Below, one piece after another: positions 258 through 37,973 of a DNA stretch of 64,000 nt (position 1 is its first letter; every line of letters starts with the position of its first letter). The notes beneath the pieces were generated by a model. The model worked only from the letters and a program-made list of their open reading frames with translations, did no database searches and was not told the DNA's origin. The position numbers were made by a program, and so were the translations under genes. Origin of the DNA: Gammaproteobacteria bacterium (GTDB lineage: Bacteria > Pseudomonadota > Gammaproteobacteria > HTCC5015); contig JACDDA010000003.1 of assembly GCA_013817245.1 (NCBI GenBank), positions 62,001 through 126,000 of the forward strand. The letters are read 5' to 3'.

Positions 258-2442
<2,185 letters not shown>

Positions 2443-27284: not shown

Positions 27285-27310
27285 AAAAACCCGGCACTGC
27301 CGGGTTTTTT
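27285..27310 (+). terminator. Rho-independent terminator of the OFOR operon
   Basis: The perfect arms AAAAACCCGGC (27285-27295) and GCCGGGTTTTT (27299-27309) form a GC-rich stem with a 3-base loop and a terminal T-run. It lies 25 bases after the beta-subunit stop codon. Confidence 0.95.
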
Positions 27311-35908: not shown

Positions 35909-37105
35909 TTAAGCAAAACCTGCTTGTAAATCTTTAATAATATCTTCCGCAGTTTCTAAACCTACGGCGATTCTAATTAAACCTTCAGTAATACCTGCGG
36001 CGGTTTTTTCTTCTGGGCTTAGTTTAGCGTGCGTCGTTGTTGCGGGATGAGTGATAGTAGTTTTTGCATCACCTAAGTTCGCTGTAATCGACAGCATACT
36101 GGTGCTGTCAATGACTCGCCAAGCCGCGTCACGCCCGCCTTTCATTTCAAAAGAAACAATGCCACCAAAACCACTTTGTTGTTGTTTGGCTAACTCATGT
36201 TGTGGATGCGATCGCAAGCCAGGATAAAACACGCGGCTTATTTGCGGCTGCGTTTCTAGCCATTGCGCAACTTGCAAGGCATTATGACTATGCGCCTCCA
36301 TCCGAATGCGCAACGTTTCCATGCCATTAATAAAAACCCAAGCATTAAACGGACTCATGCTAGGCCCTGCCGTGCGCAAAAATCCAAAAATCGTTTCGCC
36401 TACTATTTTTGCAGAACCGACGACCGCGCCGCCAATAGCACGACCTTGACCATCTAAATATTTAGTGGCCGAATGAATCACAATATCTGCACCTAATGTT
36501 AATGGCTTTTGCAAAGCGGGCGAGCAAAAGCAATTATCCACTACTAACAAGCAACCATACTCATGCGCAAGATTCGCTAATGCACGCACATCCGCGATTT
36601 CAGTCAAAGGATTAGAAGGCGTTTCAAGATACAAAAATTTAGTGTTTTTTCGAATCGCTTTGCGCCACGCGTCAAGATCAATCAACGGCACATAACTGAC
36701 TTCAATGCCGTAGCGCGGCAAATATTTATTAAACCATTGCGCAGTAGCGCCGAATACGCCACGCGAACTAACAATATGATCACCTTGTTGCAATAAGGCC
36801 AAACAAGTTGAACTAATGGCCGACATGCCAGAAGCAAATGCTACACAGCTCTCACCTTCTTCTAATATGGCTAAGCGTTTTTGAAACGCGGTAATCGTAG
36901 GATTACTAAAGCGTGAATAAACATAGCCACTTTCCACGCCGGAAAAACGATTCGCGGCTTGTTCAGCTGAATCAAATACAAAACTAGACGTTGTATAAAT
37001 AATTTCAGAATGCTCGCCAAACTGACTGCGCACTTGTCCAGCACGCACCGAGCGGGTATCAAACCCCCATTGACTTTCAATTTCTTGCTGTTCTTTTTCA
37101 GACAT
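35909..37105 (-). CDS. metZ: O-succinylhomoserine sulfhydrylase
   Basis: MetZ makes homocysteine directly from O-succinylhomoserine and sulfide. The 398-residue PLP enzyme shows SGYVYSRFSNPT, FASGMSAISS, LVVDNCFCSPALQKP and the PLP lysine in VIHSATKYLDGQGR. I chose the ATG at 37105 (MSEKEQQE), with AGGA eight bases upstream, over the ATG at 37114. MetZ is favoured over cystathionine gamma-synthase by overall resemblance, by Pseudomonas-like position before purF, and by the SAM-responsive leader just upstream. Confidence 0.93.
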   Translation of the reverse strand: MSEKEQQEIESQWGFDTRSVRAGQVRSQFGEHSEIIYTTSSFVFDSAEQAANRFSGVESGYVYSRFSNPTITAFQKRLAILEEGESCVAFASGMSAISSTCLALLQQGDHIVSSRGVFGATAQWFNKYLPRYGIEVSYVPLIDLDAWRKAIRKNTKFLYLETPSNPLTEIADVRALANLAHEYGCLLVVDNCFCSPALQKPLTLGADIVIHSATKYLDGQGRAIGGAVVGSAKIVGETIFGFLRTAGPSMSPFNAWVFINGMETLRIRMEAHSHNALQVAQWLETQPQISRVFYPGLRSHPQHELAKQQQSGFGGIVSFEMKGGRDAAWRVIDSTSMLSITANLGDAKTTITHPATTTHAKLSPEEKTAAGITEGLIRIAVGLETAEDIIKDLQAGFA

Positions 37106-37125
37106 TTTTTTCATCCTACACAAAC

Positions 37126-37154
37126 AAAAAAACCTGCTTAGCGAAGCAGGTTTT
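37126..37154 (-). terminator. Regulated intrinsic terminator in the metZ leader
   Basis: The arms AACCTGCTT and AAGCAGGTT (plus-strand 37131-37139 and 37144-37152) pair perfectly around a 4-base loop. On the minus strand a run of seven T follows (A-run 37126-37132). It lies 21 bases before the metZ start and directly after a SAM-II riboswitch, so it acts as the expression platform and also closes mtgA transcripts. Confidence 0.92.
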
Positions 37155-37164
37155 GAAATGTGAC

Positions 37165-37226
37165 CAACCTTGCTTTAGCTGCATTTTTATTGCGCCCGCA
37201 AGCTGAAATTTATCAAATCGGCGCCA
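37165..37226 (-). promoter_or_regulatory. SAM-II (SAM-alpha) riboswitch upstream of metZ
   Basis: Read on the minus strand, P1 pairs GCGCC (37220-37224) with GGCGC (37192-37196). The loop carries the conserved GATTTG and CTTGC. After P1 come AATAAAAATGCAGC and GCTAAAGC (37172-37191). These match, in order, the conserved parts of SAM-II aptamers as I remember them (GAUUU, UUGC, GAUAAAU, GCUAAA). Pseudoknot P2 can form between GCTT (37200-37203) and AAGC (37172-37175), or in a shifted CTTGC/GCAAG register. High SAM should favour the terminator just downstream and lower metZ expression. Confidence 0.87.
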
Positions 37227-37230
37227 CAGG

Positions 37231-37259
37231 AAAGTAGCGCAGATAAACCCTGAAGTCAA
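37231..37259 (-). promoter_or_regulatory. Sigma-70 promoter of metZ
   Basis: On the minus strand TTGACT (37254-37259) and TACTTT (37231-37236) are separated by exactly 17 bases. The predicted start falls just before riboswitch stem P1. It lies in the mtgA-metZ spacer, 10 bases past the mtgA stop codon, so metZ has its own transcript. Confidence 0.75.
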
Positions 37260-37268
37260 CTCGCTGCG

Positions 37269-37973
37269 CTATTTTGGAACCGGCAATATTTGCAATATTC
37301 GCAATTTTTTTGCTTCTGAAGCAATTTCATATGCGCGTCGTTGCACATAAGGTGACGGCCTCTTTAGCCGCAAACGTTTAGGATTAGGCAAAACGGCGGC
37401 CATTAATGCGGCTTGATGCACACTCAAATATTTTGCGCGTACATGAAATACGTTACGCGCAGCCGCTTCTGCGCCAAAAGTACAAGGCGCGAATTCGGCA
37501 ATATTAATATAAATTTCTAAAATGCGACGCTTGCTTAAAGTTGTTTCAGCAATTACTGTTAAATAAACTTCCAAACCTTTACGCAGCCAACTTTTACCTG
37601 GCCATAAAAATAAATTCTTCACCATTTGCTGAGTAATGGTACTAGCGCCGTGCCGCGTTTTACCACGTCGCCGACGTTCTTCCATTGCATCTTGAATAGA
37701 CTCAAGATCAAAACCTTGATGCTCAAAAAATTTTTGATCTTCAGAGGTTAACACTGACCATTTAACATGTGCCGCAATCTCTTCATAATCTGACCATTGA
37801 TAATAAATTTTTTCGCAAGGCTCGCGCTCCATAAACCAACCATGTTGTTGCAAAAACATAAAACTGCTACCCAATGGATTAATCCAACGCAAACTCGTCA
37901 TGATTGCGATGGGCAACAACAAAGAAAATAAGACACAAAAAAATAGCCAATTGGCTATACGACGAACACTCAT
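37269..37973 (-). CDS. mtgA: Monofunctional biosynthetic peptidoglycan transglycosylase
   Basis: MtgA is a membrane-anchored GT51 glycosyltransferase that polymerises lipid II into glycan strands. The 234-residue protein has one N-terminal membrane helix (about 9-28), the catalytic Glu in TSEDQKFFEHQGFD, GASTITQQMVKNLFL and the second Glu region RRILEIYINIAEFAPCTFG. It is somewhat unusual next to metZ. It follows the YkuD gene by 20 bases. Transcripts should stop at the metZ leader terminator. Confidence 0.95.
   Translation of the reverse strand: MSVRRIANWLFFCVLFSLLLPIAIMTSLRWINPLGSSFMFLQQHGWFMEREPCEKIYYQWSDYEEIAAHVKWSVLTSEDQKFFEHQGFDLESIQDAMEERRRRGKTRHGASTITQQMVKNLFLWPGKSWLRKGLEVYLTVIAETTLSKRRILEIYINIAEFAPCTFGAEAAARNVFHVRAKYLSVHQAALMAAVLPNPKRLRLKRPSPYVQRRAYEIASEAKKLRILQILPVPK

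Follow-up and report, generated by a model that had tools for sequence, protein, structure and literature searches.

SAM-II riboswitches were described in 2005 with copies beyond the alphaproteobacteria, among them Coxiella and Bordetella, and with terminators in many of them (PMC1273637). A survey published in 2007 listed SAM-II in the gammaproteobacteria and noted that its platform in alpha- and betaproteobacteria is usually a terminator (PMC2258182), and a 2009 paper named alpha-, beta- and gammaproteobacteria as the groups in which SAM-II is most common (PMC2704228). The metZ gene of Sinorhizobium meliloti has a SAM-II leader that is predicted to terminate; Northern blots show the RZ sRNA, which at about 100 nt matches the expected size and has a higher level in TY than in minimal medium, and the SAM-II switches of this organism are reported to act on several levels (PMC9373788). 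SAM-II in gammaproteobacteria, metZ as its target and control by a terminator are hence all previously published.

We analyzed the leader of a metZ gene located in the window (the whole 64-kb stretch of DNA under analysis). The gene product, an O-succinylhomoserine sulfhydrylase whose best named relatives, in Porticoccaceae and Halieaceae, place the window among the gammaproteobacteria, is recognized by two equivalog models, NF006003 (680.8 bits, cut-off 522) and TIGR01325 (566.6 bits, cut-off 510). Directly upstream, also on the minus strand, lies a SAM-II aptamer (37224-37168), and the metZ ATG is 66 nt downstream of the SAM-II core. A permissive scan of 37080-37300 matched SAM_alpha (RF00521) at 37234-37152 over model positions 1-79 of 79, with 27.7 bits and an E-value of 1.2e-4. 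A preliminary description of this DNA had proposed both the SAM-II aptamer and its metZ target, and both are borne out by the SAM_alpha match and the two equivalog models. The features of the leader, in the order of transcription, are the following.

37254-37259, minus strand: candidate -35 element TTGACT (read directly; 5 of 6 consensus bases)
37231-37236, minus strand: candidate -10 element TACTTT (read directly; 3 of 6 consensus bases, weak)
37220-37224, minus strand: P1 5' strand GCGCC (read directly; SAM_alpha match; relatives)
37214-37219, minus strand: start of L1, GATTTG (in the SAM_alpha consensus and in relatives)
37198-37203, minus strand: putative P2b 5' strand GCTTGC (position equivalent to P2b of 2QWY)
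37202-37198, minus strand: CTTGC (read directly)
37192-37196, minus strand: P1 3' strand GGCGC (read directly; SAM_alpha match; relatives)
37191-37178, minus strand: AATAAAAATGCAGC (read directly)
37172-37179, minus strand: putative P2b 3' strand and SAM-binding core GCTAAAGC (read directly; SAM_alpha match; solved fold)
37166-37175, minus strand: predicted antiterminator 5' strand AAGC-A-AGGTT, with A37171 bulged (constrained folds)
37144-37152, minus strand: predicted antiterminator 3' strand AACCTGCTT, which is the terminator 5' arm (constrained folds)
37129-37154, minus strand: intrinsic terminator hairpin of 11 bp, loop CGCT, followed by TTTGTTTG (-12.7 kcal/mol)
37114-37117, minus strand: likely ribosome-binding site AGGA (read directly; 8 nt before the ATG)
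35909-37105, minus strand: metZ, O-succinylhomoserine sulfhydrylase, 398 aa (NF006003 and TIGR01325)

The sequence elements named in the preliminary description (TTGACT-17-TACTTT, both P1 strands, GATTTG, CTTGC, AATAAAAATGCAGC, GCTAAAGC and the terminator) were all found on the minus strand where it had placed them. The promoter that it proposed is present as a sequence with a spacer of 17 nt (37259-37231) but is weak, as it has 8 of 12 consensus bases in all and was not recovered by a promoter scan at a threshold of 9 of 12. The metZ transcript may start at this weak promoter or arrive by read-through from the upstream gene mtgA, and the switch would act on a transcript from either source. 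No MetJ repressor was found in the genome, so that control by SAM would fall to some other regulator.

The covariance-model check suggested in the preliminary description gave a full-length match, but its 27.7 bits lie below the Rfam gathering score for SAM_alpha (36 bits), which is an annotation rule and not a structural feature. A default Rfam scan of the whole window at gathering scores returned tRNA only, and nothing at the aptamer site. The assignment of the leader to SAM-II rests on the core, on P1, on the genomic context and on the full-length model match. The conserved core GAUUU...UUGC...AAAU...GCUAAA is present, and P1 comprises 5 bp. Among relatives the arms of P1 vary compensatorily, with pairs such as AGCGCC/GGCGCT, TGCGCC/GGCGCA and CGTGTT/GACACG.

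The 2QWY register was placed on the window by position, by way of the crystallised sequence, and we take UUGC to pair with GC(U)AA of GCUAAA. By analogy, we infer that P2b is formed here by GCUUGC (37203-37198) and GCUAAAGC (37179-37172), with U37177 and A37174 unpaired. In the solved SAM-II fold the conserved GCUAAA strand lies in P2b; P2b of 2QWY has A41 and A46-A48 opposite G17-U18, and C16-G50 is in P2a (PMC12434664, PMC5352136). In the solved SAM-II RNA, the equivalent of GATTTG provides the third strand of the triplex that binds SAM. GCUUGC/GC(U)AA(A)GC fits P2, and its four core pairs are invariant in the 90 aptamers of the class that were read in detail (for example loci L017-L046 and L054-L113); because UUGC and GCUAAA served as search anchors, this invariance is neither independent support nor a covariation test. 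The pairing CUUGC/GCAAG (37202-37198 with 37173-37169), which had been put forward as P2, is contradicted by the solved fold, and we rejected it as the P2 of the family, all five pairs being possible in only 29 of the 90 relatives. Going by the minimum-energy fold, it may instead form as an alternative pairing of the ligand-free RNA.

Downstream of the aptamer, the terminator combines 11 perfect pairs, a 4-nt loop and a T-run; Markov-shuffled sequence of 64 kb would yield about 0.2 terminators of equal quality per strand. A Leu_leader match at the site (32.8 bits, cut-off 50) was discarded, as the terminator hairpin seems to account for most of it. Elsewhere in the window, an 11-pair hairpin at 27285-27309 that has T-runs on both strands is likely a bidirectional terminator.

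The predicted antiterminator is a duplex of nine pairs and one bulge (37175-37166 with 37152-37144). The preliminary description had paired GCAAGGTT (37173-37166) with AACCTGC (37152-37146); these strands do pair, with one bulged A, but the antiterminator has 9 bp and not 7. Its 5' strand shares AAGC (37175-37172) with the P2b strand, and the two states are therefore mutually exclusive. According to the sequence and the computed folds, the terminator arm is shared with the antiterminator, and the antiterminator is exclusive with the closed aptamer. Taken alone, the duplex is not exceptional, since shuffling the downstream sequence gave an equally good one in 121 of 1000 cases, and it is shorter than in many relatives. 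Support for an antiterminator in this leader comes from relatives, as judged by their sequences, and not from its own duplex; AACCTGCTT(TAGC) is found downstream of the aptamer in many relatives of the class too.

We folded the nascent RNA stepwise under constraints, starting at 37226, by means of equilibrium folds. A ligand-free hairpin is the lowest fold until 37146 is transcribed; between 37145 and 37134 the antiterminator takes its place, and from 37133 on, once its 3' arm is made, the terminator fold is lowest. At about 37128, that is, at full length, the terminator reaches -30.2 kcal/mol and the antiterminator -24.3 kcal/mol, a gap of about 5.9 kcal/mol. When the aptamer is held closed, only the terminator forms in these folds. 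Since the folds favor the antiterminator first and the terminator once the 3' arm is made, the choice between read-through and termination would have to be kinetic, a point of which equilibrium folds give no proof.

Given the aptamer sequence with its P1, the terminator, the identity of the gene, the bases whose sharing makes the two states exclusive, the order of the computed folds and the conservation in relatives, the metZ leader is very probably a SAM-II riboswitch acting as a transcriptional OFF switch, with ligand binding and termination as predictions. At low SAM, the aptamer's 3'-terminal AAGCAAGGUU would pair with the emerging AACCUGCUU of the terminator 5' arm, and with the antiterminator paired the polymerase would pass the T-run into metZ, provided that the duplex persists long enough. 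At high SAM, the P2b pseudoknot and triplex, formed with GCUUGC and the strand GAUUUG, would hold GCUAAAGC locked; with the terminator arm left free, transcription would end before metZ. The OFF-by-termination logic and the trade-off between terminator and antiterminator had been anticipated in the preliminary description and find support in the shared bases and in the computed folds.

The order to which this genome belongs was sampled by four genomes, the one analyzed here included. Two sister genera have a SAM-II-like aptamer before metZ, with 25.8 bits (L009) and 21.4 bits (L016). In L009 the aptamer (1501-1575, reverse strand) has the metZ ATG just downstream, and no terminator was found by scan downstream of the aptamer. 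Compared with its relatives, L009 suggests that the platform changed between related genera, and raises the question of translational control. L016 has its own terminator and an antiterminator, GCTAAAGCG/CGCTTTAG, in which GCTAAAGCG stands opposite CCCGCTTTAG in the terminator arm. In the same locus (1500-1660), L1 is far longer than usual between GATTTG and CAGCTTGC. No true metZ was seen in the fourth genome of the order (73% complete), and no SAM-II match was obtained in the named metZ relatives L010-L012 and L014.

Class-wide figures were drawn from an even sample of 369 genomes, with the class as defined by GTDB. In GTDB the class Gammaproteobacteria includes the former betaproteobacteria, and the counts pool both. 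SAM-II occurs at E<=1e-3 in 117 of the 369 genomes, and the gathering score is reached by only 30, so that 36 bits misses most SAM_alpha copies in the class. A MetZ-like ORF lies downstream of 71 of the 90 aptamers read in detail; several of the rest, judging from the N-terminal sequence, stand before metK or metF. The motif CTTT[AG]GC, complement of the SAM-binding core, is found downstream in 44 of the 90, against 3.2 for shuffled sequence; for a T6 run the figures are 70 and 16.6. Swapping aptamer ends and terminator arms among relatives gave -13.5 kcal/mol for self, -12.7 for swapped and -10.3 for shuffled combinations; as a test for coevolution this is uninformative, because the complementary motif is common to most relatives.

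These data bear on the alternatives to a SAM-II OFF switch. It is conceivable, if improbable, that the aptamer binds SAM and the antiterminator is non-functional; the leader would then be a near-constitutive attenuator on which SAM has little effect, or an effect via mRNA stability or translation. The lead of the terminator at full length (about 5.9 kcal/mol), the lack of significance of the duplex alone against shuffles, the sister locus L009, without a detectable terminator, as a sign that the platform changes quickly, and the action of S. meliloti SAM-II switches on several levels (PMC9373788) would all agree with such an attenuator. The shared-strand design, however, recurs across the class and in L016, and at the decision point no fold is lower in energy than the antiterminator. 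Much less probable still is that the site is a degenerate SAM-II or a chance resemblance and does not bind SAM. A score under the gathering cut-off would fit this reading, but most copies of the class likewise score below 36 bits; moreover, the metZ leader is the best SAM_alpha match in the whole 2.27-Mb genome (E 2.8e-4, the next match having 0.2) and lies exactly before metZ, the string GATTTG..TTGC..GCTAAA occurs only twice in that genome, and the aptamer is kept before metZ in two sister genera. Least probable of all is another SAM/SAH class (SAM-V, SAM/SAH or the long-loop SAM-II family), for although SAM-V shares the SAM-II binding core (PMC6061858) and the long-loop family RF01726 gives a weak match of 12.5 bits, SAM_alpha scores 15 bits higher at full length and no SAM-V or SAH family is among the matches up to E 10.

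The SAM-II OFF switch proposed for metZ adds a well-formed copy to a known switch class and changes no principle. As most SAM-II copies of the class escape Rfam at its default thresholds, the role of SAM-II in methionine control is under-annotated there. This would also explain why a 2014 survey with Rfam profiles gives SAM_alpha only in Rhizobiales and Rhodobacterales (PMC4239095). The same paper proposes the metXZ element as a new betaproteobacterial pseudoknot RNA with terminator-antiterminator control (PMC4239095). As for metX, one genome of the class (G109, locus L060) has a SAM-II with a terminator at C1:4377266-4377341, directly before MetX (4376042-4377220); the SAM-II core was found in 0 of the 30 class metX loci read and is absent from the metX of the genome to which the window belongs. 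A search of a plasmid collection for named metX leaders from the betaproteobacterial groups in PMC4239095 recovered only Neisseria among betaproteobacteria. A wider proposal is that SAM-II is a main methionine switch across the class, betaproteobacteria included, mostly below the cut-off, that the metXZ element is the same riboswitch, and that its antiterminator sequesters the SAM-binding core; we regard it as tentative and slightly doubtful.

With respect to known systems, the metXZ element resembles the metZ leader in preceding metX or metZ, genes of the same pathway, and in its terminator-antiterminator control; the pseudoknot proposed for it (regions 1/4 and 2/6) has a pairing scheme resembling that of SAM-II (PMC4239095). 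Unlike the metZ leader, it was published as a new element and not as SAM-II; that it may be SAM-II under another name is only suspected, by analogy (PMC4239095). The alphaproteobacterial SAM-II of S. meliloti metZ (PMC9373788) has the same aptamer core, kind of gene, terminator after the aptamer and predicted OFF logic, whereas the leader described here comes from another bacterial class and has a covariance-model score below 36 bits. The preliminary description considered a gammaproteobacterial copy with an antiterminator to be special; such copies had already been described (PMC1273637, PMC2258182, PMC2704228), and a SAM-II before metZ with terminator and antiterminator is common in the class and nothing unusual in kind. 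The beta- and gammaproteobacterial SAM-II of those reports share class and topology with the metZ leader, which differs from them in coming from an order sampled here by only four genomes and in having its platform resolved base by base.
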